From: a virus
Virus record (IMG/VR): IMGVR_UViG_3300031933_000215
Coordinates: 124,001 to 188,000 of that record
DNA: 64,000 bases
Strand: one strand, 5' to 3'
Shown piece after piece: positions 24,523 through 38,668 of this stretch; positions within the stretch are counted from its first letter, which is position 1; each line of letters starts with the position of its first letter. The notes beneath the pieces were generated by a model. The model ran no database searches, was not told the origin of the DNA, and saw only the letters and a program-made list of their open reading frames with translations. The position numbers and the translations under genes were made by a program.

Positions 24523-24792
24523 TCATAAGATATGGCATTGTAAGGACCGACTATGCGGAAATACTGGCGGATCAATGATCCGCCAGAGATCAGTCAAAGT
24601 GAACATCGCCGTCATCAATTCTTCATGGATTCGGTAGAGTTCGGGTGTTCCCCAGTATTTTAGAGGAAGATTGTTTTTGTCGTTGAGTTTATTGGACACG
24701 AGCAGACACTCAGTCACGGCTTGTTCCAAGTCACACTCACTGCTTAGGTCGTGGATTTCAATGTGCGTAGGTCATAAGGCTTCTTTGCTCAT
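24523..24792 (-). pseudogene. Small ORF with in-frame TGA at codon 7
   Basis: An ATG at 24792 overlaps the previous stop (ATGA) and has AGGAGA just upstream, so it is an excellent coupled start. It reads MSKEAL, then TGA (24774-24772), then continues open in the same frame for 82 codons ('PTHIEIHDLSSECDLEQAVT', 'YWGTPELYRIHEELMTAMFT') to 24523. Options are a recent nonsense mutation, UGA-C readthrough, a sequencing error, or restart at TTG 24729 (68 residues). No function recognised. It is the last gene of the radical SAM operon, and a strong hairpin lies near its 3' end. Confidence 0.55.
24564..24586 (-). terminator. Strong hairpin inside the 3' end of the last operon gene
   Basis: A perfect 10-bp stem (CTGGCGGATC/GATCCGCCAG) with a 3-base loop is followed on the minus strand by TATTTCC. 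It lies inside the last small reading frame and may end the radical SAM transcript. Confidence 0.5.
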
Positions 24793-25208
24793 ATCTCTCC
24801 TAACTCCTCTTTACAATAGCCGATGATAACCGAGTACAGTACTGTTGCTTTGAAGGAAGTGGTCAGAACCGCCGGTATCAGAGTATCGTAGACGACCGCC
24901 GTTTCTTCGTTGTAAGGTGTGAAATGGTCGTCGTCGTGGAGTAGTTGCGGGTGAGATAAAACCGAATAAAAGTTATTGTCGTATTGTTTTGAAATATAAT
25001 CGGCGTAACAAATCGCCACGATGTAGCTCTTCGCCGGGAACTCCAACGCTTCGACGTCACCATTGATCATGTTCAACGCACTGACAATCACATTGGGGTT
25101 ATACGATCCCCCAAAGTAATCGGTTTTATTGCCTTCCCGATGAAAGCGTCTAAGACGGTCTAGCCAACCACCATTCAATGAGTGATTTGTACCCACTGCA
25201 TTCGCCAT
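24789..25208 (-). CDS. Protein of unknown function, radical SAM operon
   Basis: A 139-residue soluble-looking protein: 'NPNVIVSALNMINGDVEALE', 'AICYADYISKQYDNNFYSVL', 'VVYDTLIPAVLTTSFKATVL'. Its 5' end overlaps the preceding radical SAM gene by 59 bases in another frame; AAGGAAGG precedes the ATG. The alternating hydrophobic helices give no family match by eye. Tight overlap with a radical SAM gene suggests a partner, such as a recognition or accessory subunit, but this is inference. Confidence 0.65.
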   Translation of the reverse strand: MANAVGTNHSLNGGWLDRLRRFHREGNKTDYFGGSYNPNVIVSALNMINGDVEALEFPAKSYIVAICYADYISKQYDNNFYSVLSHPQLLHDDDHFTPYNEETAVVYDTLIPAVLTTSFKATVLYSVIIGYCKEELGEI

Positions 25209-26049
25209 CCAATCCTTCCTTTCGTCGATAGTGTTCTGTCAAACATGTACCCTTAAACTCACACGAGCGACACACATCCGAAAGCAGGGTGTGTTTTTCT
25301 TTTTGGGTCCATTCAAGGTACGCATTGAAATCCGGGAGTTCCAGGAAAAACTCCCGATCGGCGTCGTCGAACTCCAAGACCCCAAAATTGCCATTTGGAG
25401 TGATGTAGACATGGTCGTCCGAGAACGCGTTACGGACACCGTCAGCGACGTCGTTCAATAATGCTGTGTTACGTAGCTGGCTGTTTGGAAAACCCATTAC
25501 CCAGCGTTTCACGTACTCTACAAAGGCATTGTTTGTATTACCTCGATCATTGGCCTGATTGGGACTGTAAGGTTTGATTTCCACCGAGTTCAAGTTCGCT
25601 AACGACCGGATCAATTCGATTTGCTGATCGACGTCACCGGCCATCACTTCCGGCGTGGCCAAAACAATGACGTTTATCGGACGTGAAAACACCAACATGT
25701 TTGTGAAAACTTGTTCATGGTGGGGCCGGTGGTCAAAGTCATACGAGACGTTGACGTCGATATCGTCGTCGTATAGCCATTCCGACATTTGGTAGAAATT
25801 GGTGGTTATGGAAATGGGACCATCGTAATATCGCCGAACGACCCCCTTTAGATCATGGACGTACGTCTGATCCAACAGGGTCACTTCACCACCATAAATC
25901 TCAACGGCTTCAATTTCGGGGAGTTCCGAGAGACGATGGTCCAGGTGTGTCAAATCCAACACGCGTCGAGACCGGAGCTGGTCTTCGGTTAAATAACAGT
26001 TCGCACATCGGAAATTACATCGGTACAAAGGGTTTATCGATACGATCAT
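25150..26049 (-). CDS. Radical SAM protein (enzyme E of five)
   Basis: A 299-residue protein with the radical SAM cluster motif C11-x3-C15-x2-C18 in 'INPLYRCNFRCANCYL' and the SAM-binding 'VEIYGGEVTLL' at about residue 50. A C-terminal Cys group ('VCRSCEFKGTC', about residues 265-275) resembles part of a SPASM or twitch auxiliary cluster site. It should cleave SAM reductively to start radical chemistry; the peptide-modifying branch is favoured by the C-terminal Cys group. It is tightly packed, with 22 bases after the 2OG-oxygenase-like gene and a 59-base overlap with the next. The substrate is unknown. Confidence 0.88.
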   Translation of the reverse strand: MIVSINPLYRCNFRCANCYLTEDQLRSRRVLDLTHLDHRLSELPEIEAVEIYGGEVTLLDQTYVHDLKGVVRRYYDGPISITTNFYQMSEWLYDDDIDVNVSYDFDHRPHHEQVFTNMLVFSRPINVIVLATPEVMAGDVDQQIELIRSLANLNSVEIKPYSPNQANDRGNTNNAFVEYVKRWVMGFPNSQLRNTALLNDVADGVRNAFSDDHVYITPNGNFGVLEFDDADREFFLELPDFNAYLEWTQKEKHTLLSDVCRSCEFKGTCLTEHYRRKEGLDGECSGYKSLIEWWLARPS

Positions 26050-26071: not shown

Positions 26072-26662
26072 TTAGTAACCTGTGGGGTGACCAAAGAACA
26101 GATCGCATGCTATCGACATACGCATAACCCCAGGACTGGGTTTTACGTAGTGTCCCAGATAACTTGGGAACACGTAAACCGTATCGGCTTCGGGCGTTAT
26201 TTGGTAGTTGGCAAAGTGGTTTTTCGTTATGTCCCACTCATAACCACGACCGGCACAACCACGTGGGTCGACGAGAACCAGATTCCCTGGATTGGGAATC
26301 AGATAGAAAACAGCACTCACTTGAGCCCCGTTATGCACGTGCAGATCAAGACCGTCATTATTCTGACTATAAATACACCACATGCTGGTTCTATAGTCTT
26401 TGTCGTTCAGCGTAATGCCGAACTCTTCTTGAACGTAACGGAGCAATGCGGGTAGTATAACGTCGTCGTGCAGTTTGCTCAACGTAGGCCGTTCGGCGGG
26501 GTCGTATAAGTCAACCCTACTACCATACGCATTGTTATTGCTGTCCTCGTTGATCCCCATGGAAAATATCTCGCCGATGGCGACGTCTATATCCACATCG
26601 TGATCCTCGATGTGGTCTTTGTGGATCACGGTTTTCCAAGGTTCTATGCGCTCGTATGCCAT
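26072..26662 (-). CDS. 2-oxoglutarate/Fe(II) oxygenase-like protein
   Basis: A 196-residue protein. 'GLDLHVHNGAQVSAVFYLIP' followed by 'GNLVLVDPRG' and later 'VYVFPSYLGHYVKPS' with 'VMRMSIACDLFF' match the TIGR02466-type 2OG-Fe(II) oxygenase pattern (H-x-H-N-x ... P-S-x-x-x-H ... R). Such enzymes hydroxylate amino-acid side chains or small molecules using O2 and 2-oxoglutarate. The iron-binding His residues and the Arg for 2-oxoglutarate are visible; substrate is not. It lies within a radical SAM operon, so sequential modification of one protein is possible. GGGGA precedes the ATG. Confidence 0.7.
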   Translation of the reverse strand: MAYERIEPWKTVIHKDHIEDHDVDIDVAIGEIFSMGINEDSNNNAYGSRVDLYDPAERPTLSKLHDDVILPALLRYVQEEFGITLNDKDYRTSMWCIYSQNNDGLDLHVHNGAQVSAVFYLIPNPGNLVLVDPRGCAGRGYEWDITKNHFANYQITPEADTVYVFPSYLGHYVKPSPGVMRMSIACDLFFGHPTGY

Positions 26663-26671
26663 TGTCGTCCC

Positions 26672-27364
26672 CTATGGGTTTTTGAACGTGGGGTCGCCTG
26701 GAAGTAGGTACTGTTTTATTTTGATCACTTCCAACGTGGATGCATCAAACAGACAACCAAACGCCCGTTTCTTTCGTGTGGTATCACCGTCATTCGGTGG
26801 CGCAACATTAAAAAAGGTACCTATTTCCTTCCCAGTCAGGTCGGTGTAAAAATAGATGTCCCGGAAACGAAGTAATCGTTCATCGTTTAAATGTAAACCT
26901 ACACCGAAATAGTCGATTGGTACACACCCAGGCGGTAGCCGTGGGTATTGATGTCGTGCGATGTTGAGGTCGTACACCTTTAATGCTTTTTGTTGCGTCT
27001 CCAATTGTAGCTTTAACGTGTAGGACGTACCTTGAACAAAACCCTCGGGTAGCTCACAATCAAACAATGGGGCGACCTGAGCAACGTCACACCGACGGTA
27101 CGATATCGAAATAGTGTCTTCGGGGTAGTTGGTATTGTTTTTGCGGGTAAGGCCGATCAACTCCCAATTCTTCAATTCCGGCCACGGACTGGCTAAGATT
27201 TCAGGACTGTGTTCGATAGCCATATTGAACAAGGGTAGTACCGGTTCTGATAACACGGGGAAGTTGGGACGGTAGGTATTCTCGGACAACCCATTGGAAT
27301 CAAGGGTGATTTCCTTTGCAGTCGGGTCGACCCCATCGATGTTAGTCAAAGAAACATTAGACAT
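26672..27364 (-). CDS. Unknown protein with weak likeness to the tail domain family
   Basis: A 230-residue protein. 'EDTISISYRRCDVAQVAPLF' recalls the 'NIVLTYRRLDLARLF' landmark of the tail proteins at the start of the window, and the remainder is beta-rich ('YTLKLQLETQQKALKVYDLN'). It overlaps the upstream radical SAM gene by 8 bases, with GAGGT upstream of the ATG. If the likeness is real, the operon would encode a structural-like protein beside its modification enzymes. Confidence in homology is low. Confidence 0.6.
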   Translation of the reverse strand: MSNVSLTNIDGVDPTAKEITLDSNGLSENTYRPNFPVLSEPVLPLFNMAIEHSPEILASPWPELKNWELIGLTRKNNTNYPEDTISISYRRCDVAQVAPLFDCELPEGFVQGTSYTLKLQLETQQKALKVYDLNIARHQYPRLPPGCVPIDYFGVGLHLNDERLLRFRDIYFYTDLTGKEIGTFFNVAPPNDGDTTRKKRAFGCLFDASTLEVIKIKQYLLPGDPTFKNP

Positions 27365-28391
27365 TTCTTACCTCAATCAAATCGACAATACCAACTTCAC
27401 TAGCTTGATTCAGTTCCGCTTCCAACGCTTTCATCTTACTGCAATGTTCGTCAACCCGACAACTTTCCTGTGTATCCATGATCGTTTTCCGACATCCGTT
27501 ACACAAACTGAAGAGTGAACATCCCCAACAGTCGTCATGCATGGACAGGTATAACATCGAATCCTGAAGAGGTGTGGTGATTGCGTCACTGGCCATCTCA
27601 TTTTCAAAATCAATCGGAAACATGTCATCGTCACCAAATGCACCACAACTGTAATACGACCCGTCGGGATGTAGGTTACGAATTCCTTTATCGCAGTCAC
27701 GACTTATGGGACATGTCGTCTTAAGTCCGCCCAAGGAACGTATGAACTGCTGTGTGTTGTATTCCCATGGAGTCAACCCCGCCTTATGTATTTCGAGGTA
27801 TTTGGCGTAAATGTCCCCCATCAAATAAGAAATACTTTGACGCCCGCTGGCGAATGCCCAATTAAGCTTACACACTACGCCCATTTTTTTGGCCAGTCTG
27901 ACATTATCCAAGGCGCGTTGAACGTTACTCTCGTCTATCACTGAGATGAAATCTGGACGGTACCCGACCCGCTCTAAGAACAGGTCACTGACTGCCCAAA
28001 AGTCCTCTTCTAAAAACACCCGTGTACGAGTAATTAATCGACTGTCACCGTAATGGAAGGACGTCCCCACCCCGATTTGTGGGTGGCGAAACAGCTCAGT
28101 CCATTTGTCGGGCCGCTTATAAAAGTCCCACAAGTTGGTCGTGAAGCTGACAATGGTTTCGGTCATGCCGCGTTCTTCCAACAGCTTGAGGATATCCCAA
28201 TAATAGTCGGGCCTGAGCATCAACGGATCACCACCGTTAACAATGATCGTTTGGGTGTTCGGAAACCGATCCAGAAAGCGAGCAATATAGTCCAGATTGA
28301 GAACGTCTTTCTTATCGTCGGTTATGTTGGTGGAGCTGCAGAACGTGCAGGCGAAGTTACAAAGTTCCGTTGGTTTGATGATCAGATCCAC
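27357..28391 (-). CDS. Radical SAM protein with SPASM-like C-terminus (enzyme D)
   Basis: A 344-residue protein with C11-x3-C15-x2-C18 in 'KPTELCNFACTFCSSTN' and 'IIVNGGDPLMLRPDY' (about residues 50-60) for SAM binding. The C-terminal region has many Cys ('DCWGCSLFSLCNGCRK', 'ESCRVDEHCSKM'), the spacing expected of a SPASM domain holding auxiliary Fe-S clusters. SPASM enzymes modify peptides or proteins (thioether, C-C or epimer products). It is the first gene after the terminator at 28461-28495 and may have its own promoter. Substrate unknown. Confidence 0.88.
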   Translation of the reverse strand: MDLIIKPTELCNFACTFCSSTNITDDKKDVLNLDYIARFLDRFPNTQTIIVNGGDPLMLRPDYYWDILKLLEERGMTETIVSFTTNLWDFYKRPDKWTELFRHPQIGVGTSFHYGDSRLITRTRVFLEEDFWAVSDLFLERVGYRPDFISVIDESNVQRALDNVRLAKKMGVVCKLNWAFASGRQSISYLMGDIYAKYLEIHKAGLTPWEYNTQQFIRSLGGLKTTCPISRDCDKGIRNLHPDGSYYSCGAFGDDDMFPIDFENEMASDAITTPLQDSMLYLSMHDDCWGCSLFSLCNGCRKTIMDTQESCRVDEHCSKMKALEAELNQASEVGIVDLIEVRNV

Positions 28392-28495: not shown

Positions 28496-29479
28496 TCACC
28501 ATTGGTTTACTTTGGCGATTGTTTCCTTCGGTAAAACACACTCGGTGATTCCATAATCTTCCATGATTGACAACACGCGATGGTCCAGACACGTCGGCAG
28601 AAACGGACACTCGCCACACTCTTTCGTTTTGGTGGTGTAAGCGTACTGTTCTAAGATGACGGCGTCGTACTTCTTACGATAGTCCTCTACCCCGTCAACC
28701 CGGTACCGGTCACGGATTTGTATCAAATCTTCGTAAACGATGGGGATGGCGTAAAACTCATTCTCATAAAAAATGATTACGCGTTCTAGTTTGTCGTGCG
28801 GACTCACCACATCGACGTGTTGGTCGACCATACAGCCGTCGTTAGTCGCCTGAGTGGTGACGGTCACAGATTTTAACCAGTTAAACGCGCGCCGGTACTG
28901 TTCTGGATCGTTACTGGTTCGAGCAAACGACAGATTAAAGTCCACACCTTGACCGTACTGTCTGAGGTAAAAGTTGTTCAACGTTTCGTAGTTATCGACT
29001 ACCAACGACTGACTCAAATTCAACTGTGGGTGCAGGTACAGGTTCGGGAACCGGGCTTTGACGTCCCGAACCTTCTCGGCAATGACCGCATTGTAGCGTT
29101 CGTTCAGGTTCTTCGATTCCGGAATGACCACGTTGATCTGAAGTTCCTTCATACCAAGACGATCAAGGGCGTTCAATACCTGTAAGTCGGGTTTCACCAT
29201 GGTGGAGTTGACAACCAGTCGATCAAACCTTTTGATTAATTCAGTCAACCGAATGTCATTCAGGATCTCCATCGTGTTGGTGGCGGTGAAGATATCGGTA
29301 CTACCCAAAACGACCGCATATGGGTCGAGGTGTTCTAGGAACTCATAGGCCACGCGGTACATCTTATCCGTAGCTTTATTGGGGGAATCACGATCAACAT
29401 GGCAACCCGCGCAATTGAATGCACAACCCGCTAAGATCTCCAACTGCAGTTCGAATGAGTTGAATTTTTCGATGTTCAC
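28496..29479 (-). CDS. Radical SAM protein (enzyme C)
   Basis: A 327-residue protein. The cluster motif C19-x3-C23-x2-C26 is in 'EILAGCAFNCAGCHVDRDS'. The GGE-type segment is replaced by 'AVVLGSTDIFTATNTM' (about residue 60). A C-terminal 'ECGECPFLPTC' resembles one SPASM or twitch site. Beta-alpha repeats such as 'LVVNSTMVKPDLQVLNALDR' fit the TIM-barrel core. The start overlaps the stop of the upstream radical SAM gene (ATGA), implying coupled synthesis. Substrate unknown; the altered GGE region suggests a specialised or divergent enzyme. Confidence 0.85.
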   Translation of the reverse strand: MNIEKFNSFELQLEILAGCAFNCAGCHVDRDSPNKATDKMYRVAYEFLEHLDPYAVVLGSTDIFTATNTMEILNDIRLTELIKRFDRLVVNSTMVKPDLQVLNALDRLGMKELQINVVIPESKNLNERYNAVIAEKVRDVKARFPNLYLHPQLNLSQSLVVDNYETLNNFYLRQYGQGVDFNLSFARTSNDPEQYRRAFNWLKSVTVTTQATNDGCMVDQHVDVVSPHDKLERVIIFYENEFYAIPIVYEDLIQIRDRYRVDGVEDYRKKYDAVILEQYAYTTKTKECGECPFLPTCLDHRVLSIMEDYGITECVLPKETIAKVNQW

Positions 29480-30480
29480 GAAATCACTCCATAGAGTCGT
29501 TTAAACTCACAATGTTTGTTTGTGATGTTCACGTGGTCACTGTGTAGAAAACAACCCAACCCGCAACGCTGATAAAACTCACAACTCAGGCACTCGCGTT
29601 CTTGAATGAACCGGACCTCGGACTCATGGATGTTGTCAACAACAGTCGGGTCCGATTTGAACTGGTCCCGATCGGCCAAAATCCGACAAGAGCCCGTATG
29701 TCCTGTCGGAAGAATGATGAACGAACTCCGACAGGTCGCTGTGTTGTGGTGATTCTCACGAAACCCTTTGACTGGTTGACATTCCGGATAGTGTTTATCC
29801 AACCACAGGAAAAAGTCAACCAGTTCAACATCACTGGGCTGTAAAATTTCAGCGTTATCTTCGGGTGAATAATAGTCAAAGAAAATCGGGTAGTCCTGGT
29901 AAAGTCGATCAAACACGACGTTGGAACCACGCATGAATCGTTCAATGTTAGGTCGGGTCAACACCACGGAAATGTTTGACAGCCAGGGTTTGAACTTGGC
30001 CAGGTTTTCCTCAAACAGTTTAAGCGTCTGAGAGTTAAACCGACCCGCAGCATCGTAAGACGTGCAAAAGGTGAACGGAATCAGCAGTTCTTCCAATGTC
30101 TTGATGAACCGCATCACCCGCTCGGCCTTCTCGAACACTAAGTTGGTCACGAAATTGATTTCACAGTGTTTAACTGATGTCACTACCCGATGACAGAACT
30201 CTACATAGTCGTCGAATACTCGATCGGGGAGTTCGTCCATGAACAACTCCCCACCCATGACGTTCACACTGTAAAAATCGTGATCGTTGGTGTTATTAAT
30301 GACAACGCTTGCTTTCTCAACAATCTCATCAACACCAGTCCAGTCGCTGTGGTCCTGCCAACAAAACCCACAGCTAAGGTTGCAGCGCTCAAAGAAGTTG
30401 ATGAAAAATTCTTTATTCTGTCCCCGCTTTGCTTCCACTATCTCCACCAGCGGTATCAGGTCCGGGTTGTTCGTGGCCAT
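29476..30480 (-). CDS. Radical SAM protein (enzyme B)
   Basis: A 334-residue protein. C33-x3-C37-x2-C40 is in 'NFFERCNLSCGFCWQDHSDW', and 'VNVMGGELFMDEL' gives the GGE motif at about residue 77. The C-terminus has 'CLSCEFYQRCGLGCFLHSDH' and a further 'KHCEFKRL', consistent with a SPASM-type auxiliary cluster. The 5' end overlaps the upstream gene by 68 bases, the 3' end overlaps the next radical SAM by 4. As with its neighbours, protein or peptide modification is the likely chemistry; the target is not evident. Confidence 0.87.
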   Translation of the reverse strand: MATNNPDLIPLVEIVEAKRGQNKEFFINFFERCNLSCGFCWQDHSDWTGVDEIVEKASVVINNTNDHDFYSVNVMGGELFMDELPDRVFDDYVEFCHRVVTSVKHCEINFVTNLVFEKAERVMRFIKTLEELLIPFTFCTSYDAAGRFNSQTLKLFEENLAKFKPWLSNISVVLTRPNIERFMRGSNVVFDRLYQDYPIFFDYYSPEDNAEILQPSDVELVDFFLWLDKHYPECQPVKGFRENHHNTATCRSSFIILPTGHTGSCRILADRDQFKSDPTVVDNIHESEVRFIQERECLSCEFYQRCGLGCFLHSDHVNITNKHCEFKRLYGVIS

Positions 30481-31165
30481 TGAGTATCTCCAAAGCGTAT
30501 TTGTTTAAAAGCAACCAGTTGGGGTTTTCTTTATCCCCAACGAAGAAGTGAAACAGGTTCTTTCCGTTGAACATGTATTCTTCAAACTGGACAGGGAAAT
30601 AAAACTGCCGGTAGTCCACCGCATCTCGGATAGAGAAAAACAACTCGAAGAACGAAGGAATCTCAAACAGCCAGACAACGTTAACACCGATATATTTCGG
30701 GTCGTTAATAACACCGTCATATCCCCGGAGATCTGGGTCTTTGTCATCGTCTATTGCTTTGATGTAGTCACAGTACTTGACCATCGAAGAGCAGAACAAG
30801 AAATACCGGGCCAGCAGGTCGGAGTGTTCTTCAACAAATTCATCTAAGAATCCATCTGGGGTTTCGAATGTAGCGATCCCAGAGGTGTCCCCCTCCATGA
30901 AATGGATCAGTACCAACAACACAAGAACGTTGAGTTCTTCACACTTAAAGAGTGTGTTGATTTCCATGTAAACACTGAGTAATTCTGAGAGTTCTTCTTT
31001 TGACAACGTCTCCACGTTGATCCGTGTTTTGACGTTCAGGTTTGCCAGGTAAAACACAAAGGGTTTCCCCTTTATTTTCGAATTACTGTAATCGACAGTA
31101 TACACTTTGTCGTTTTCGGCAATGACGTTGTGTAGGTCACTGATGGGGAGTGGTACGGTAATCAT
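30413..31165 (-). CDS. Unknown protein, divergent relative of the three-gene family
   Basis: A 250-residue protein. It starts 'MITVPLPISDLHNVIAENDK' and has 'KPFVFYLANLNV' and 'LFHFFVGDKENPNW', weakly echoing the 'VYINSLG' and 'WSxFFG' landmarks of the three proteins encoded upstream. The tail is a low-complexity 'GPDTAGGDSGSKAGTE' overlapping the next gene. It contains no catalytic motif that I recognise. Expression is coupled to radical SAM enzyme B by overlap, suggesting a shared function. Confidence 0.6.
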   Translation of the reverse strand: MITVPLPISDLHNVIAENDKVYTVDYSNSKIKGKPFVFYLANLNVKTRINVETLSKEELSELLSVYMEINTLFKCEELNVLVLLVLIHFMEGDTSGIATFETPDGFLDEFVEEHSDLLARYFLFCSSMVKYCDYIKAIDDDKDPDLRGYDGVINDPKYIGVNVVWLFEIPSFFELFFSIRDAVDYRQFYFPVQFEEYMFNGKNLFHFFVGDKENPNWLLLNKYALEILNGHEQPGPDTAGGDSGSKAGTE

Positions 31166-31175
31166 GACGTTTGCC

Positions 31176-32210
31176 TCATCCGTTCAGATTCATTTGTTTC
31201 AACACGTCTCGGTCTGCGTGGTACAAGTACCCGATGAAATTGTTATTCATGTTATCCCGAAATTCCGTGCGACCAAAAATTTGACTACAGTGGGTATTTA
31301 TATCCATGTTGACCAGGTCTCTGGCTTTCGTTACCGTGAACGAACCCTCAGGAAGAACCCTGAGTAGGTGGTTCAGGAATGGATCGGTGGTTCCATTCTT
31401 CGCATGGACTTTTTCGACAAGCTCACGTATTTCCTTGTGGTGCCTTTTAATAAACGCCACATTCCCTGGGTGGTTATCTGGATTGAACAGCACTGTGTCC
31501 TCCAGTGCTTCGATCTGGTCGTCGATATCGTCCCGTTCCAAGTCAATATCAAACCCAAAGTTTTGCTTTAGGTTGTAGATCCCATATAACAAGTCACGTC
31601 GCACGCCCACGAAGTCCCATGCCACTGATTTCCAGAGGATTGTTTCCATGCGCTCTACGAACGCGGATACGTAGCGATCAGATGGGTCAAAATCAACCAA
31701 GAGAACATGCGCCAGTAAGTATTCAAAACTGATACGCTCTTTCAGTTCGGCTGGGACGGGGCGCGGTTCTACTTCCTCATACCAAGCCCTTACAGCATCC
31801 AGGGTGGGGATTGTGATGTTTCGAAAACCGTCTTTTCGCGAACCTTTGGTACTGGTGCGACTTCCATGCTCGTACTTGTGGTTCACCGCATTCAGTTTCA
31901 AGAATCGATGTACCATCTCCACACTTGCCAGTGGGAATAAGGATCGCAGCCAGACCACCAAAAAGTAATTCAGGGAACGCTCGTCTATTAAAATGGTGGT
32001 CTTTTGTCCGATAGGCGTCAGGCATTCAACAAATGTGAATAGGTCACCAAAGTCTCTCTCGATTGCGTCGACCGACACAAACTGATACAATGGCCTAGGG
32101 CCATGCGTTACACGACACTGTCCAAGTGGTCCTACATAGACCAAGTTGTTGCGACCTACATTTCCAGTGAAATCGTAATCAATATAAACCTTATCCAACA
32201 AATGTAACAT
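31176..32210 (-). CDS. Unknown protein, radical-SAM-locus family copy 3
   Basis: A 344-residue protein paralogous to the next two genes upstream. Shared landmarks, in order: an N-terminal 'MLHLLDKVYIDYDFTGN', 'MVHRFLKLNAVNHKY', 'ISFEYLLAHVLLVDFDPSDR', 'ERMETILWKSVAWDFVGVRR', 'LLYGIYNLKQNFGFDIDLER' and a C-terminal 'IFGRTEF...NFIGYLYHAD'. The middle is mostly helical. No known family recognised. Three tandem copies imply either recognition of different substrates or subunits of one complex. Confidence 0.65.
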   Translation of the reverse strand: MLHLLDKVYIDYDFTGNVGRNNLVYVGPLGQCRVTHGPRPLYQFVSVDAIERDFGDLFTFVECLTPIGQKTTILIDERSLNYFLVVWLRSLFPLASVEMVHRFLKLNAVNHKYEHGSRTSTKGSRKDGFRNITIPTLDAVRAWYEEVEPRPVPAELKERISFEYLLAHVLLVDFDPSDRYVSAFVERMETILWKSVAWDFVGVRRDLLYGIYNLKQNFGFDIDLERDDIDDQIEALEDTVLFNPDNHPGNVAFIKRHHKEIRELVEKVHAKNGTTDPFLNHLLRVLPEGSFTVTKARDLVNMDINTHCSQIFGRTEFRDNMNNNFIGYLYHADRDVLKQMNLNG

Positions 32211-32232
32211 TATTTTTTTTACCTGCCGTCAG

Positions 32233-33270
32233 TCAGCCGTTCATTTTGAAATACTTCAAGGTCTCCGGCGTCAGATTGTAAAGATAATTAACAAAGACGC
32301 CGTTCGTGTCTTTGGTCATCTTCTCTCGACCAAAAAGAAAAGACCAGAGTGATTCTCTGTCGACAGCCACCAGTTCTTTCAGAACACTCCCGGTGAATGG
32401 TCGTTCCGGGTCTAAAAGGTCAAACAAGAAACGCCGATACTGGTCACCGTACCCAAGAAGCTCATCCACTTTATCCATCATCTTTCTGATGTACGCGTAA
32501 TCCGCTTTGACGACATCCACGTCTTTATAGGTTATTGCCGGGTCGAAAAACCGCTTAACCTCAGGCTGATTAAGTTGGTACTCGATATCATTTCGATCAA
32601 AATTAATCGGCAGACCAAGTGTTTTCTTCAACCTAAACCCATTGTAGAAAGCCGCCATTCGACGCTTAACAAAATCCCTAGCGCAGGATATCCACAACAT
32701 GTGTTCAATTTTCTTAGAAAGTTGATCTACATGCGGGTCAGCGTCGTCAAAATCCACACTTAAGGAGTGAGCCAAGAGTGTTTCATAGCTCAGGTGTTTT
32801 TTGAGTTCCGAACAATACCCACTACCATGTTTCGAACCCGCGTAAAAGCGTTTCGTGTCGTCCAGTGTTGGAGCCGGAAGCTGGTCAGCGTAATGATCGT
32901 AAGCAAACCCCCTAACTCGAACAAAACGATGGTGTATGTAGAAGGTCCTCAGGATTGCGTGGATGATTTCCACCGGCATCTCAGGATACACCGCTCGATA
33001 GTGGGTCACCACTAGCTGGTACATGTCGTCAATGTCCAACATTAACCACACGTCGCCTTCAGTAAGAATCAATGTTTCCATGAATGTAGGTAGGTCGCCA
33101 AAAGCATCCAACGCTTCTTCGAGGTTGGTGAATTCCATGAGTCCTTCGGGATGGAATTCATTTTGAGTATGCGTACGGTCGTCCAGATAAATGTACGAGT
33201 CGGTTGGTTGTTTCAGGTCAACGCTCGTAAATGCAAAGTCCGCCCGGACGTCATCAATTAAGTGCAGCAT
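32233..33270 (-). CDS. Unknown protein, radical-SAM-locus family copy 2
   Basis: A 345-residue paralogue. The start at 33270 aligns with copy 3 ('MLHLIDDVRADFAFTSV') and has AAAGGAAA upstream; a longer frame to 33399 overlaps the previous gene by 127 bases and is not needed. Landmarks are 'ISYE'-like 'LSYETLLAHSLSVDFDDADP', 'IEHMLWISCARDFVKRRM', 'LKKTLGLPINFDRNDIEYQL' and 'LWSFLFGREKM...NYLYNL'. Function unknown; helical composition suggests protein-protein interaction. Confidence 0.65.
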   Translation of the reverse strand: MLHLIDDVRADFAFTSVDLKQPTDSYIYLDDRTHTQNEFHPEGLMEFTNLEEALDAFGDLPTFMETLILTEGDVWLMLDIDDMYQLVVTHYRAVYPEMPVEIIHAILRTFYIHHRFVRVRGFAYDHYADQLPAPTLDDTKRFYAGSKHGSGYCSELKKHLSYETLLAHSLSVDFDDADPHVDQLSKKIEHMLWISCARDFVKRRMAAFYNGFRLKKTLGLPINFDRNDIEYQLNQPEVKRFFDPAITYKDVDVVKADYAYIRKMMDKVDELLGYGDQYRRFLFDLLDPERPFTGSVLKELVAVDRESLWSFLFGREKMTKDTNGVFVNYLYNLTPETLKYFKMNG

Positions 33271-33272
33271 GG

Positions 33273-34322
33273 TTATGTTTCCTTTGTTGGGGACAGGACC
33301 ATATCTGAAATCTTTACAGGCGTGACTGAATGCAGGTAACTGAATATAAGGGAGCCTGTTCCCCATAATGCATCGTCGATACCGAAGAATGCACTCCACG
33401 GACGCTTCCGGTCGGCGTCAATCAGCTCGATGAATTCGTCGTGTGTGATCTCATGGTCCTTCAAGAAGAAGCTAACGGCGAGCTCCTTGAAGTCCTCTAC
33501 AATGTTATTGCGTTTGTTGTTAACGCTAATAGCGTGGTGGATTTTCTGGGCGTTAGCTGCAGTTATCTCATTAAGTGATTCATCAAACCCCAGCGCTTCA
33601 TCCAGCTTTGAGATTTGTTCCTCGATGTCGTCCGCCAGCGGATCGATATCTAGGTCTAGGTTTTTCTTTAGACCGAAGATTCCTAATAACAGCCTACGGC
33701 GCCATGTGGTGTAGTCAGTCACCAACATTTGCCACAACAACGCTTCCATCCGTCGTCTAAAACAGATGACATAAGGATCTGACTCAGAATAGTTACACGC
33801 ATGTGCGTGAACCATAAGGTATTCAATAGAAACGTTCTCTTTTACCAAATCGGAGAACTCACCATTTACTCCCGCCTCTTCGTACCAAATGCGCGTCTGC
33901 ATTGGTGTCGGGACTGTAAGTCCGAGTCTACCCTCACGATTAATGCTCGCGCGGGTGGAAAGGCGAATCTGGCTGTATTTTTGGTCGATCGTCACCATTC
34001 TCAAGAACCGATGTGTGTTCTCAAGCGTGATGTTTGGAAAAATACCACGCAAGAAATGAACGTAAAAACGGTTTAGATCTTGCTCGTCGATGAACGCCGT
34101 GACATCACGACCACTGTGAATAATGGATTCGATGAATCCATTTATACCACCAGGGGCGTCTATAAGCACATCAAGATTGGGGTACTTCATCAGCGGAGTT
34201 GCGTCTTGAGAAAAAGCCTTAGACCCGAGGGAGTTAATATAAACAATATCTTTCGGGTTGGCCCTAGCGTTCGGACTGGAAAATGAGTAATCAAGCGACA
34301 GGCCGTTTGTCAACCGGATCAT
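33273..34322 (-). CDS. Unknown protein, radical-SAM-locus family copy 1
   Basis: A 349-residue paralogue beginning 'MIRLTNGLSLDYSFSSPNAR', with 'LENTHRFLRMVTIDQKYSQI', 'VSIEYLMVHAHACNYSESDP', 'RRMEALLWQMLVTDYTTWRR', 'LKKNLDLDIDPLADDIEEQI' and 'PWSAFFGIDDALW...FSYLHSV'. Its start overlaps the stop of the Cys-His-tailed substrate-like gene (ATGA), so the two are translationally coupled. That coupling makes a chaperone, recognition or immunity-like role for the substrate protein worth considering; nothing in the sequence proves it. Confidence 0.65.
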   Translation of the reverse strand: MIRLTNGLSLDYSFSSPNARANPKDIVYINSLGSKAFSQDATPLMKYPNLDVLIDAPGGINGFIESIIHSGRDVTAFIDEQDLNRFYVHFLRGIFPNITLENTHRFLRMVTIDQKYSQIRLSTRASINREGRLGLTVPTPMQTRIWYEEAGVNGEFSDLVKENVSIEYLMVHAHACNYSESDPYVICFRRRMEALLWQMLVTDYTTWRRRLLLGIFGLKKNLDLDIDPLADDIEEQISKLDEALGFDESLNEITAANAQKIHHAISVNNKRNNIVEDFKELAVSFFLKDHEITHDEFIELIDADRKRPWSAFFGIDDALWGTGSLIFSYLHSVTPVKISDMVLSPTKET

Positions 34323-34861
34323 CGTCTGCTCCTTGAACCGTGGCAGTTGCTGTGGCAGTTCGAATGACAGACTGACAGATCCACGATCTCACCGTTGTGA
34401 ATGCGTTCATATAACTCGTTCTGAACTGTTTGGATCAGGTCGGATAGATTTGACCGATCAGCATCGTTTCGAGTGGAAATGTAGGTCGGGTCACCACCGG
34501 CGGTTTTCAAGCTGTGTATGCTCTGGCGGTAATTATTGTTCAGTGCTGCAATACCCCACTCTTTATCGTGATCGCCGTTTGTGTAATTACTGCCAGAATA
34601 ATGACGCGCGGTGTAAACCTTGCGCATTGAAGTACAACGTTCCGCTTCGGCTTTGATCACGTCAACAACGTTACTTGCATCGACATCTCCGGTGTTTGCA
34701 TCAGTACCCCTATCAAAATGAGACAGTTCCACCAGCGGACTTTGGTCCATGTACTTGTCGTCCCGGGCAGAACCCTTCCACCATTTCGCTTGGTCCTTGG
34801 CGTACTGGTTGATGTTGTTATTGACAGCCGCGTGAAAATCACTCCGTTTTAAATCAGCCAT
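34319..34861 (-). CDS. Putative RiPP-like substrate protein with (CHSN)2CHGS tail
   Basis: A 180-residue hydrophilic protein. The first 160 residues are helical and polar ('SDFHAAVNNNINQYAKDQAK', 'NLSDLIQTVQNELYERIHNG'), like a leader or carrier domain. The end is 'CHSNCHSNCHGSRSRR', with Cys165, 169 and 173 at exact 4-residue spacing, each followed by His. A short Cys-rich repeated C-terminal core directly after a SPASM radical SAM gene (1-base gap) is the layout of ribosomally made, post-translationally modified peptides. It could instead be a virion protein modified at its tip, or a metal-binding tail. GAGG lies 9 bases before the ATG. Confidence 0.75.
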   Translation of the reverse strand: MADLKRSDFHAAVNNNINQYAKDQAKWWKGSARDDKYMDQSPLVELSHFDRGTDANTGDVDASNVVDVIKAEAERCTSMRKVYTARHYSGSNYTNGDHDKEWGIAALNNNYRQSIHSLKTAGGDPTYISTRNDADRSNLSDLIQTVQNELYERIHNGEIVDLSVCHSNCHSNCHGSRSRR

Positions 34862-34862
34862 G

Positions 34863-35999
34863 TTAGAATACCTCTACAACTGGGATCGTTTTTGTATCCG
34901 AAGTCAGCGCGGACGGCTCTTTCTCATACCGAATGCCTTCCTCACCCATGAACCCATTGAGTACTTCCTTCAGGATGTCCTGATCGGTGTTTTTCATGGA
35001 CCGCATCATGGACTTTGGAGAAGCACAGATATCGCCCTGCCAATTAAGTTGATGACAATCGCCATTACAAACGTCAAATACGTCACAACTGAAACAGACT
35101 TCGTTCAGGGTGCTTTCGGTTGCAATGTTACATCCACGTCCTTCCGAGAACACGATATCTGAAATGGTTTGATCCAAGGTTCCGAACGTCGTCTCAGGGG
35201 CGCCATTGGGACACCCGCCAATGGTACCATCGGCGTTCAGGGTTAGAATCTTCTGTTCGCATTCCCGACTACGGCACCCGGAAAACGTATTGAATACAGT
35301 GCTGGTCAGCAGGCTTTCTAGGAACATGTTCAAGATCTTTTCGTACGCCTTGTGTTCCAACGTCTGTTCCCACATTTTCAAGAACCACGCGTCCAACTCC
35401 AGATTGGTAGGAAAAATACCGGTGTTCTCACGGGCGTTACCATTCTCAGTGATGCGTTCAAAGTTGATGAACGCAACCCCAAGGTTGGTCATCTTGTTGA
35501 TCAAGTCGATTGGCTCAACATCCATCAGGTCTTTGGACACGCAAATCATGACCGTGACGTCTATGCCTTCGGCCACTAACTTACGGACGTTTTCTTCCCA
35601 CAGCGCTTCTTGGTTGCGGTTCCCTTGCCAACGGATGCTGTAATCCCAGGATGTCCCGATTGAAGTTCCTGCCACTTTCTTCAGAAACGCCAGTCGGTCA
35701 TCTGTCAGCTTATACGTCAGGTTGGTTTGAATACCCCATGTCAAGTTATCCCAGAGTCCATCCAGCTCATCGTAAACCTTTTCCATTTTGTCCAGCGGGC
35801 AGAGCATCGGCTCGCCACCATGGAACGAGATGTTGGCGGAACGGAAGGTGGGGAACTGAGCTTTCAGTCGGTGAAAGAAGTCAATGGTGGCATCCGGGTC
35901 AAACCAACCCTTCTTCCCGTTGGTACCACTTGTGAAACAGTGCTGGCAGTTTAACTGGCAAGTTTCGGTAGTTTTCAGGTAGACCATTAAATCACGCAT
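34863..35999 (-). CDS. Radical SAM/SPASM maturase-like protein (enzyme A)
   Basis: A 378-residue enzyme. The start at 35999 (GAGG 7 bases upstream) places C14-x3-C18-x2-C21 in 'YLKTTETCQLNCQHCFTSG', close to the N-terminus as in anaerobic-sulfatase-maturase-type SPASM proteins. 'ANISFHGGEPMLCPLDKM' gives the GGE motif (about residue 65). The C-terminal 'CRSRECEQKILTLNADGTIG' followed by 'VCFSCDVFDVCNGDCHQLNW' is a full SPASM pattern. Such enzymes form thioether, C-C or formylglycine-type changes in peptides. It directly precedes the Cys-His-tailed protein, its most likely substrate. First gene of the operon. Confidence 0.9.
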   Translation of the reverse strand: MRDLMVYLKTTETCQLNCQHCFTSGTNGKKGWFDPDATIDFFHRLKAQFPTFRSANISFHGGEPMLCPLDKMEKVYDELDGLWDNLTWGIQTNLTYKLTDDRLAFLKKVAGTSIGTSWDYSIRWQGNRNQEALWEENVRKLVAEGIDVTVMICVSKDLMDVEPIDLINKMTNLGVAFINFERITENGNARENTGIFPTNLELDAWFLKMWEQTLEHKAYEKILNMFLESLLTSTVFNTFSGCRSRECEQKILTLNADGTIGGCPNGAPETTFGTLDQTISDIVFSEGRGCNIATESTLNEVCFSCDVFDVCNGDCHQLNWQGDICASPKSMMRSMKNTDQDILKEVLNGFMGEEGIRYEKEPSALTSDTKTIPVVEVF

Positions 36000-36075: not shown

Positions 36076-37005
36076 TTACACCCACTGTGCCGGCCAAACG
36101 ACCTTCCAACCACCGTTGACGTAGGCTTGCAGTTGATTGTTACGGACCCGCAGACTGGTCTCGTCTGTAGAACCAATTCGCACGTAACGCCCGTCGTGGT
36201 GATTCACGTTCGGGTTAGCGTGGGTGGCAAGTGCGACACCCACGGCGTGTGGTGACATGTACCGGGTTTTGGTGGACATGTCCGCCGCCTGGGTATCCGT
36301 GGCCATTTTGTAGTTTTCGACGTCCCCCAGTCCCACCTGGGCCTTAGTAACCTTGTGTGGGTTGGTGCCGTCTTCCATGTGGTCGACCAAGCGGTTCTCG
36401 ACTCGGTTTCGATCTTCGGCTGCTTCTTCAAACAACATCAACGCGTAGGCACGCGTTTCATCGTGAAGTGCTTGGTCACCAGCCATGATCGCCTGAACAA
36501 TCCGTTCCAGTTCGGTGACAACCGGCTCAAACCCATACAGTTCCCACAAGGCGTGCAGGTGGCCAGCCGCTGGGTACTCGTTAGGCTTGCCGATGATGTT
36601 GGCCCACTCCACGGGCCGATCTTCTTCAGCCAGTGTGTCGATCACCTGCTGGAGTGCGTCGGTTGAAACTGCAAAGTCTCCACCCACTACCTGGTAATCC
36701 AGGAACACACTGGTCGAAACATTGGGGTTAACAACGATGATCGCCCCACAGACTTCCAGACCGCTTCGGGTCGTGGCCCGTTCGTACAGGTAAGTGGCGA
36801 TATAATCATCGCCCTTACGAAGCTCTGCACCTGACACATCCCGGAGGACCATGTCGCGGGTGTAGAACCCGCCGTAATTGGGAACCAAGACCCGGTAGTT
36901 ACCGGTGGTCACGGCGGCGTCCAGATCGTGTCGCTCGCCCAGGATGCGGTTATCCGGATTCCGGCCCGTCAAATCCAACGGGTATTTGTTAACAATGAGT
37001 GACAT
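36076..37005 (-). CDS. Tail-fibre/baseplate-like structural protein
   Basis: A 309-residue protein. The N-terminal 130 residues ('LVPNYGGFYTRDMVLRDVSG', 'TSVFLDYQVVGGDFAVS') match the N-terminus of the next gene upstream ('IPQAAPFYVESFEIRDQATG', 'VSMTYQTIGGHWGFSDQ'). 'DHMEDGTNPHKVTKAQVGLG' with 'VENYKMATDTQAADM' is the NPH-x-VTKxQVGL repeat common in phage tail fibres. The C-terminus ('GGWKVVWPAQWV') looks like a small tip. Likely a fibre or fibre-attachment protein. Confidence 0.75.
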   Translation of the reverse strand: MSLIVNKYPLDLTGRNPDNRILGERHDLDAAVTTGNYRVLVPNYGGFYTRDMVLRDVSGAELRKGDDYIATYLYERATTRSGLEVCGAIIVVNPNVSTSVFLDYQVVGGDFAVSTDALQQVIDTLAEEDRPVEWANIIGKPNEYPAAGHLHALWELYGFEPVVTELERIVQAIMAGDQALHDETRAYALMLFEEAAEDRNRVENRLVDHMEDGTNPHKVTKAQVGLGDVENYKMATDTQAADMSTKTRYMSPHAVGVALATHANPNVNHHDGRYVRIGSTDETSLRVRNNQLQAYVNGGWKVVWPAQWV

Positions 37006-37021: not shown

Positions 37022-38668
37022 TTAGGCTTCAAGTTGGGCGGACGCGTCATCGAATGCCGCAATCAGGGTGTCCGTGACGTCTTGGGCACCGGCACCGACG
37101 GTGGGAATCGGTGTCCGACCACTTCCACGGGTTGGGTAGTACAGACCAGGATCGGGCAGGAACTGACCTGTCGGTTGACGCACTGGGATGAATGTAATTC
37201 CTTCAGCGGGAACGTTGGTCACATCCAGTGACAGTTCCATGACCCGCTCAGCGCCGGTACCGGTGATACCCAACATGAAATCCCGCATGGGCGGGATGCC
37301 GTTCAGTGTGGTTATGTTTACCGTTTCGTTTGTCCAGTCGGCTTCAATACTAACCCACGCTTTACGTCCATCGGGTCCTGGTACGCTACCAAGCATGTGA
37401 AGGGGTTCGTCGGTTTCACTGAGGTGATAAAACGGCAGATGTTCATCGCGTCCGAAACTGTCTCCAGAGGTGAAGTCCCAGGTATACGTTGCGAAATACA
37501 CAAATTGCGTGTACATGTCGTCCTTGATGTCACCATACGTCATGTTCTCCAGCATTTGGGAGTTAGCAGCCGTGCCCAACAGGATGTCCTGTTTCAACCC
37601 TTCGAGGGTCATCCCAAATGTCCGGTCGGTGTCGTAAGCGGTACCATCGACCCGGAGGTAATTCTGCAAGATACCGTTGATGGTATCCATGCTGATTGCG
37701 CCGATATCCGCAGCGGTAATTCCGTGGGGGTTATTGGTGTCACTGAAATGCGGTTCCAGAACCTCGTCCTTGAGGGCTTGGATGACCACCTCTACCAGAT
37801 ACGGGGTCATGTACCGGTCGTTACGGGTCCCGTCATACGCTTCGCCCGGTGTGGCGATTCCGAAGTTCTGTACTAGCGAAAGACCTACGTCGGCTTTATC
37901 AGTACCGTGGGGGTTGTCGGCGTTCAGGTGTTCGTCAATTTCCCGTTGTACAGCTGCCCCTACAGCAACGTCCGTCGACTTCGGTGACATATAACGGTCA
38001 CTGCGGAGTCCTTCGGCTGCCTCGGTCTCGTTGGCCATCGGGAAGTTTTGTACGTACTCCAGCCCCACCTGTTTCTTGGTGACCATGTGAGGGTTGTCCC
38101 GACTGTTCATGTGGTCGGTTACAGTCCCCGCTTCCGTATCACCCAGTGCACGATTGATATCACCGATGGCTTCAACCACTTCTTCGAAACCGATCAGTTC
38201 ACCGGTGCCCTGATCGTGTGGGATCGGTGGGAACAACGCCGGGAGTGTGTCAATCTGACTCCATGCGCGAGTCAATGGGTTGACAGCTTTATTCGACAGC
38301 TCTTCCAATACGGCTTGATCTGAGAAGCCCCAGTGACCCCCGATGGTTTGGTAGGTCATGGACACAATACCACCGATATCGCGACTCAGGAAGCGCAGAG
38401 AACCTGCCAGAGCCTTACCGGTGTTGTTGGAGCCTTCGGGGAAATAGTGACCAAAGAGAAAGTCACGTCCTTCCTTATACAGACGACCAGTTGCTTGGTC
38501 ACGGATCTCAAACGACTCCACGTAAAACGGAGCCGCCTGAGGGATGATGAAATAATAGTCATCCCGGCCAGGGACCTGCAGGGTCTGCAACTCCCCATCG
38601 ATTTTGTTTGCCGGGTTGGTACCGTACGGGTCGAACTCGTACAGTCCCGTGGTGTTTACAGTAGCCAT
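37022..38668 (-). CDS. Tail-fibre-like structural protein with NPHxVTK repeats
   Basis: A 548-residue protein, homologous at its N-terminus to the previous gene. It has three consecutive fibre repeats: 'NPHMVTKKQVGLEYVQNFPM', 'NPHGTDKADVGLSLVQNFGI' and 'NPHGITAADIGAISMDTING', each preceded by His/Asp ('DHM', 'EHL', 'PHF'). The remaining 200 residues are beta-rich ('YFATYTWDFTSGDSFGRDEH'). Probably a long fibre or baseplate-attached component; receptor specificity cannot be read. Confidence 0.78.
   Translation of the reverse strand: MATVNTTGLYEFDPYGTNPANKIDGELQTLQVPGRDDYYFIIPQAAPFYVESFEIRDQATGRLYKEGRDFLFGHYFPEGSNNTGKALAGSLRFLSRDIGGIVSMTYQTIGGHWGFSDQAVLEELSNKAVNPLTRAWSQIDTLPALFPPIPHDQGTGELIGFEEVVEAIGDINRALGDTEAGTVTDHMNSRDNPHMVTKKQVGLEYVQNFPMANETEAAEGLRSDRYMSPKSTDVAVGAAVQREIDEHLNADNPHGTDKADVGLSLVQNFGIATPGEAYDGTRNDRYMTPYLVEVVIQALKDEVLEPHFSDTNNPHGITAADIGAISMDTINGILQNYLRVDGTAYDTDRTFGMTLEGLKQDILLGTAANSQMLENMTYGDIKDDMYTQFVYFATYTWDFTSGDSFGRDEHLPFYHLSETDEPLHMLGSVPGPDGRKAWVSIEADWTNETVNITTLNGIPPMRDFMLGITGTGAERVMELSLDVTNVPAEGITFIPVRQPTGQFLPDPGLYYPTRGSGRTPIPTVGAGAQDVTDTLIAAFDDASAQLEA

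Follow-up and report, generated by a model that had tools for sequence, protein, structure and literature searches.

Why would a virus carry three tandem copies of an unfamiliar protein among genes for radical S-adenosylmethionine (SAM) enzymes? The question is raised by a 64,000-nucleotide stretch of viral DNA (positions 124,001-188,000 of the 231,818-base IMG/VR record IMGVR_UViG_3300031933_000215; the window, hereafter), which encodes a 180-residue protein with a (Cys-His)3-RxRR end beside tail genes, five radical SAM enzymes, a 2-oxoglutarate (2OG)-Fe(II) oxygenase, a 250-residue protein designated B and the three copies in question, designated P1, P2 and P3. This combination of Cys-His (CH) tail, enzymes, B and P was found to recur in unrelated viruses. 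We see about an even chance that the locus serves to mature a single virion protein of the phage, as a cassette in which P would act as a non-catalytic partner. The argument centers on the following features of the window.

34319..34861, minus strand: CH-tailed protein, presumed substrate, 180 amino acids; its C-terminal 45 residues match phrog_35144
34319..34369, minus strand: C-terminal tail CHSNCHSNCHGSRSRR plus stop, a match to the degenerate pattern
33273..34322, minus strand: P1, 349 amino acids; its ATG shares bases with the stop codon of the preceding CH-tailed gene
32233..33270, minus strand: P2, 345 amino acids from the homologous ATG (the mechanical open reading frame begins at GTG, 33399)
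31176..32210, minus strand: P3, 344 amino acids, from open frame and homology; structure predicted
30413..31165, minus strand: B, 250 amino acids, a separate conserved cassette family (phrog_20767)

A recurrent cassette around a Cys-His tail

The hallmark of the presumed substrate is a C-terminal C-H-x-x-C-H-x-x-C-H-x-x-R-x-R-R followed directly by the stop codon, and the gene preceding P1 ends in VCHSNCHSNCHGSRSRR. A degenerate DNA pattern for this tail had one match in the window and none in 100 shuffles, and the CHxxCH core has a single occurrence in the whole 231.8-kb record. Searched against IMG/VR, the pattern was found in at least 119 stretches; among the matches listed, 142 lay in frames with widely differing leaders and two tandem CH-tailed genes were common. 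The family phrog_35144 (function unknown) matched 78 of 92 CH-tailed proteins, and an alignment of 92 tails gave nine invariant positions, the invariance of C, H and R being built in by the pattern with which the tails were fetched.

The genes around the tail usually follow the order fibre genes, cupin, radical SAM enzyme A, CH-tailed gene, B, P, radical SAM enzymes B and D, oxygenase and radical SAM enzyme E, with enzyme C present in some cassettes only. The tail-anchored set comprised 119 loci among the matches listed, a scope that applies to all counts made on it, and in 60 of them the downstream flank reaches 3 kb or more (49 single-tail and 11 twin-tail loci). The single-tail loci contained P in 41/49, B in 45/49 and a radical SAM gene in 49/49; the four apparently lacking B carry it in the locus map, these misses being start-site artefacts. 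Twin-tail loci had B in 11/11 and P in 0/11, as judged with a hidden Markov model (HMM). Where single-tail loci extend at least 2 kb upstream, a cupin was found in 59/69 and a radical SAM gene in 64/69.

A P-anchored scan, in which IMG/VR was searched with a P profile from marine relatives, yielded 74 loci (this set and the tail-anchored one both include close relatives). For the 66 loci with at least 2.5 kb upstream, the strict tail was present in 63, and B and a same-strand radical SAM gene in 65 each, the three loci lacking the strict tail being L235 and L236, which have a variant tail, and L231, which has a tail on the opposite strand. More than half of the P-anchored contigs (38/74) were absent from the tail-anchored set; 33 of these 38 have the strict tail, two the variant and three none (L182, L217 and L226, each ending short upstream). 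P is therefore tied to the CH tail, and not just near it in one virus. The preliminary description of the window had associated P with modification enzymes and a CH-tailed protein, and both scans bear this out, P travelling with the two.

Iterative HMMs, applied to a locus set that includes named phages and genome contigs and leaves out the duplicates L001-L004, L011 and L012, recovered P in 88 frames from 77 loci and B in 119 frames from 117 loci. Single-sequence searches for related loci with P3 and with B returned two contigs each, and tblastn of P3 against the phages collection returned nothing. The twin-tail loci (L013, L035, L044, L053, L063, L075, L077, L085, L093, L094 and L095) have two tandem CH-tailed genes of about 125-140 amino acids and several type C radical SAM genes.

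Further forms of the tail were found without the pattern. L235 and L236 carry the variant WCHSSCHSSHSSRNRR, and L163 and L164, from two genomes sampled in the phylum that includes a Bacteriovorax genome, carry CHSSHSSHSSHSSRGRR and CHSNHCSHSNHGSRGRR, in which His is more frequent and Cys occurs once or twice. Across these variants Cys seems less constant than the Arg end or the His-Ser repeats. The makeup of the L163 and L164 tails suggests that the modified residue could be His or Ser rather than Cys. Contigs of metagenome-assembled Bdellovibrionota genomes with both CH tail and enzymes accounted for 8 of 19 stretches (L133, L134, L138, L143, L145, L146, L147 and L150), and B was found in 8 of 191 genomes drawn from this phylum (L157-L164), once on a 593-kb contig (L163). 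Predators that have adhesive fibres may employ this modification too. The tail pattern also matched in Frankia, Pseudoalteromonas and Bordetella (L135, L136 and L142), in genomes with no B; these matches are probably due to chance.

Three P copies and a separate neighbour

The preliminary description had proposed three tandem paralogues, and these proved real: P1-P3 are minus-strand open frames, homologous over their full length and members of one HMM family, with local alignment z-scores of 48 (P1-P2), 68 (P1-P3) and 64 (P2-P3) over 200 shuffles each, while having diverged to about 30% identity. A search of the whole 231,818-base record with P3 gave exactly three matches, P1-P3 themselves (E 2.4e-241, 8.6e-45 and 3.0e-41). 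The landmarks by which they were recognised do stand in the same order in all three, but their exact letters vary between copies: HRFL in P1 and P3 and HAIL in P2, followed by EYLMVH, ETLLAH or EYLLAH, by RMEALLW, KIEHMLW or RMETILW, by LKKNL, LKKTL or LKQNF, and by FFG, LFG or IFG with a subsequent YLH, YLY or YLY. Likewise, the coupling of the first copy to the CH-tailed gene, where the ATG of P1 overlaps the TGA of its neighbour (ATGA at 34319-34322), is correct provided that "first" means the 5'-most copy, 33273-34322. That the family is undescribed agrees with its poor coverage in domain libraries: each Pfam family reached at most 1 of 61 P proteins, and only phrog_36207 (function unknown) matched, in 12/61. 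No family could be assigned convincingly to P, B or the CH-tailed proteins by searches of Pfam, NCBIfam and PDB sequences.

A single P is usual, and the triplication belongs to the window lineage. The tail-anchored loci with P have one copy in 39 cases and two in 2 (n = 41), and the P-anchored loci one copy in 71 and two in 3 (n = 74); other multi-copy loci include L106, L133, L146 and L147. A tree was built from 75 P proteins, excluding rows shorter than 290 amino acids and L016, which duplicates the related contig L005. In it, P1-P3 grouped with the three copies from L005 in one clade (support 100/100), where each window copy paired with its L005 counterpart to give three supported orthologue pairs. 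The triplication therefore predates the split of the window and L005 viruses, inside this lineage. Values of pN/pS, which are rough because synonymous sites are near saturation, were 0.26 for P1, 0.22 for P2 and 0.19 for P3, compared with 0.14 for B, 0.14 for radical SAM enzyme B and 0.22 for the CH-tailed gene; on these ratios, all three P copies are under purifying selection.

The tandem copies had been taken as a sign of several substrates; the one CH tail in the record and the single P of nearly all other viruses speak against this. L023, for instance, has one P beside six radical SAM genes. Given a single tail here and one-P viruses with as many enzymes, extra P copies need not mean extra substrates, and an arrangement of one P per enzyme or per substrate was rejected on copy counts.

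The neighbour at 30413-31165, considered in the preliminary description to be a distant fourth paralogue, is not one: profile-profile comparison (hhalign) gave a probability of 0.2%, and pairwise alignment with the three P copies gave z-scores of 0.8, 1.2 and -0.6, and B was rejected as a member of the P family. B constitutes a family of its own (phrog_20767, E 2.2e-41) that is better conserved than P, and its model (pLDDT 87.5) had no structural match in the fold search (best Z 2.2).

Enzymes, tail genes and likeness to known systems

The cassette is flanked upstream by tail genes and continues downstream with most of the enzymes, as follows.

37022..38668, minus strand: gene for a tail protein, ahead of the cassette (phrog_13857 tail protein, E 1.1e-118)
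36076..37005, minus strand: gene for a virion structural or fibre-type protein, adjoining the cassette on its upstream side (phrog_2163 virion structural protein, E 1.2e-96, and several tail fibre PHROGs)
34863..35999, minus strand: radical SAM/SPASM enzyme A, 378 amino acids (phrog_1802, E 4.6e-54; CxxxCxxC)
29476..30480, minus strand: radical SAM enzyme B (PF04055, E 0.0024, below cut-off; CxxxCxxC; orthologues in cassettes)
28496..29479, minus strand: radical SAM enzyme C (PF04055, E 1.1e-4, below cut-off; orthologues in cassettes)
27357..28391, minus strand: radical SAM/SPASM enzyme D, the best conserved enzyme (PF04055, E 1.6e-9)
26672..27364, minus strand: 230-residue protein with relatives in 8 of the compared loci
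26072..26662, minus strand: 2OG-Fe(II) oxygenase (PF13759, E 2.1e-12; phrog_81)
25150..26049, minus strand: radical SAM enzyme E (PF04055, E 3.6e-4, below cut-off; orthologues in cassettes)
24789..25208, minus strand: 139-residue protein (phrog_20737), found in 24 of the compared loci

The start of enzyme A was set at the ATG that matches the 378-residue frame in L005, the mechanical open reading frame extending to 36176. Many radical SAM models were matched by the window enzymes, none of them at its curated cut-off among the matches listed (enzyme A against TIGR03942, for example, had E 3.7e-18, under the model cut-off), and enzyme D was over the Pfam cut-off for PF04055. Enzyme D is 48-54% identical to its counterparts in six named phages and, at E 1e-20, was detected in 7 of 50,697 records, which represent the six cultured phages with the cassette: FLC6, FLC8, SURPRISE13, pPa_SNUABM_DT01, Phosso and Atu_ph07. 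It also has a weak ahbD match. Passages of a Baltic Sea survey report 261 viral "ahbD" heme genes (PMC9301287), and in view of the weak match of enzyme D some viral "ahbD" genes may be misnamed tail-modifying enzymes. The window lineage appears to lack the cupin: HMMs detected none in the window, L004 or L005, and one protein query found none in the 231.8-kb record, a weak negative.

The tail-fibre setting extends to other viruses. Genes ahead of the cassette in L070, L104, L028, L013 and L079 matched tail-fibre phrog_19602 (E 7e-10 to 1e-5), and in pelagimyophages radical SAM genes are described, in passages of PMC7029224, as added cassettes in the host recognition cluster together with tail fibres; those passages name no substrate, CH tail, P or B family. 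In Agrobacterium phage Atu_ph07, the CH-tailed protein AUZ94952 is coding sequence (CDS) 170 when annotated genes are counted from the start of the record, a count that agrees with the six published numbers 125 (head completion), 132 (tail sheath), 140, 198 (portal), 204 (prohead core) and 215 (major capsid). According to passages of PMC6102473, mass spectrometry placed most Atu_ph07 virion proteins in three clusters, one of which is CDS 170-215; B (169) and the downstream enzymes (168, 165) fall just outside it. Burkholderia phage SURPRISE13 (L006) needs host flagella to attach, as stated in passages of PMC11898562, and this flagellum-dependent attachment is a possible assay for a modified tail. 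Its CH-tailed protein is SURPRISE13_072, and that of FLC6 is gp72.

Several known systems share features with the cassette. As in radical SAM systems for ribosomally synthesized and post-translationally modified peptides (RiPPs), a short conserved C-terminal motif on divergent leaders is encoded beside radical SAM/SPASM enzymes and oxygenases. Unlike in those systems, the substrate is a protein of 120-360 amino acids, probably a virion part, the window has five radical SAM enzymes for one substrate, and neither B nor P matched a known partner family in the scanned libraries. A PqqD-like RiPP recognition element was listed neither for the ten scanned proteins nor in the fold lists, an absence that excludes nothing. 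The His-Xaa-Ser system (HxsA/HxsB/HxsC) likewise has C-terminal His/Ser repeats, and the divergent Bdellovibrionota tail becomes CHSSHSSHSSHSSRGRR; however, no window enzyme attained the cut-off for HxsB or HxsC (at most 26.9 bits against TIGR03977, cut-off 267.9, and 26.9 against TIGR03978, cut-off 370), the context here is a phage with tail fibres, and B and P are extra. The CXXX-repeat system (TIGR04115) has Cys every four residues at the C terminus and a weak match to enzyme A (E 4.4e-5), but at 23.1 bits against a cut-off of 350; in addition, each Cys here is followed by His and the end is RxRR. The pelagimyophage cassettes share the location of radical SAM genes in the tail-fibre region. 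A search of the open-licence literature in PubMed Central, with preprints outside its scope, found neither the tail strings nor any paper that by its title deals with modification of phage virions by radical SAM enzymes. Maturation of a short motif by radical SAM enzymes is a known kind of chemistry; as far as the literature was searched, the same does not hold for the substrate, the enzyme number or the partners.

What P may do in a proposed tail maturation

The arrangement would be explained if the enzymes chemically modified the Cys-His tail and the modified protein were built into the tail or a tail fibre, contacting the host. It is probable, in our judgement, that the cassette matures the CH tail. 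With less assurance, P would hold the CH-tailed protein for the enzymes as an adaptor or scaffold, similarly to leader-binding partners in peptide-maturation systems; among the roles weighed here, that of a partner presenting the CH-tailed protein to the enzymes is given somewhat less than an even chance. In the window lineage, one P would have given rise to three diverged copies, all kept, which is most simply pictured as a hetero-oligomer replacing a homo-oligomer.

The fold of P bears on whether it could itself be an enzyme adding or removing a group on the tail, with a phosphatase-like fold and a different active site, a role that we consider quite unlikely. The P3 model, built from 61 sequences (pLDDT 89.0, pTM 0.89), has an alpha/beta region spanning roughly 150 residues and a helical region. 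When residues 1-150 were aligned with VIA-align, the best 50 rows all belonged to the protein tyrosine and dual-specificity phosphatase (PTP/DUSP) superfamily, and eight residues (H3, Y9, D13, R22, D83, E172, D336 and N341) are invariant in 16 marine relatives. The best structural match was nevertheless weak and of the fold only (Z 6.3 at 4.0 Å over 145 residues), the C-terminal 190 helical residues of P remained unmatched, and most leading Foldseek rows were phosphatases at E 0.47; among viral models, phage homologues came first (Ralstonia phage RSL2, E 3.1e-11), followed by annotated viral phosphatases (E 0.47 and weaker). Moreover, the catalytic HCX5R loop after the central strand was found in 0 of 61 P proteins (12 CX5R matches in 11 proteins lie elsewhere), the position at the end of that strand being occupied by D76 in 53/61. 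P as an active phosphatase was accordingly not adopted, and because the fold is weakly phosphatase-like and the CX5R loop is missing there, P is predicted to be a non-catalytic relative or look-alike of phosphatases. The sequence and fold lists did not place P with transposases or capsid proteins, a placement that the preliminary description had named as refuting, although a missing match excludes nothing.

If P acted independently of the chemistry, it could assist assembly, as a chaperone of the fibre or as a factor for the CH-tailed protein. The cassette adjoins tail-fibre genes, P1 is translationally coupled to the CH-tailed gene, and the enzymes are universal where P is not, all of which would fit; yet a same-strand radical SAM gene occurs in 65/66 P loci and the Bdellovibrionota loci with P also have radical SAM genes, so that P is linked no less closely to the enzymes than to the tail, and we regard the chaperone as unlikely. 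Specificity subunits, with every copy serving its own enzyme or its own substrate, would account for copies that are about 30% identical and all retained, but sit poorly with the one CH tail of the record and with one-P viruses that have as many radical SAM genes (six in L023), making them an improbable choice. Least plausible, and in our view very unlikely, is P as an anchoring protein, a structural part of the virion rather than a maturation factor: the cassette does abut structural genes, but the virion cluster of Atu_ph07 begins at the CH-tailed gene and leaves B and the downstream enzymes outside, a point that bears on P indirectly, Atu_ph07 having no P by HMM.

Several observations weigh against tail maturation with P as a non-catalytic partner. 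P was not found by HMM in Atu_ph07 and Phosso, nor in 8/49 single-tail and 11/11 twin-tail loci, and is therefore not strictly required. In the twin-tail loci a 367-residue family occupies the P slot; the N-termini of the two families align at E 0.001 with a probability of 21%, a weak resemblance that is no more than suggestive. The conserved E163 (60/61) and D76 (53/61) could be part of an active site, which would make P an enzyme, and VIA-align Z values under 8, where the phosphatase likeness lies, may reflect a common arrangement. Modification is predicted here from the genes, and Atu_ph07 gp170 itself would be in the virion on the strength of the cluster boundary, in passages that do not give gp170 by name.

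More broadly, we tentatively propose that certain predatory Bdellovibrionota, together with a common but unrecognised class of phages, carry out multi-step radical SAM modification of the (Cys-His)n-RxRR tail with which an adhesive fibre ends, yielding a non-proteinogenic warhead or metal site for host attachment, with P and B as dedicated new partner families; this falls short of an even likelihood. Six of the phages with the cassette are in culture, so that the idea can be tested directly, and the sequences of P and B can serve to locate the system in viromes of any kind. If it is true, radical SAM genes that surveys count as auxiliary metabolism would have a function, and viruses would complete a tail protein chemically, using several radical SAM enzymes, while it is still inside the cell, adding a layer of host recognition that would be invisible to gene prediction alone.

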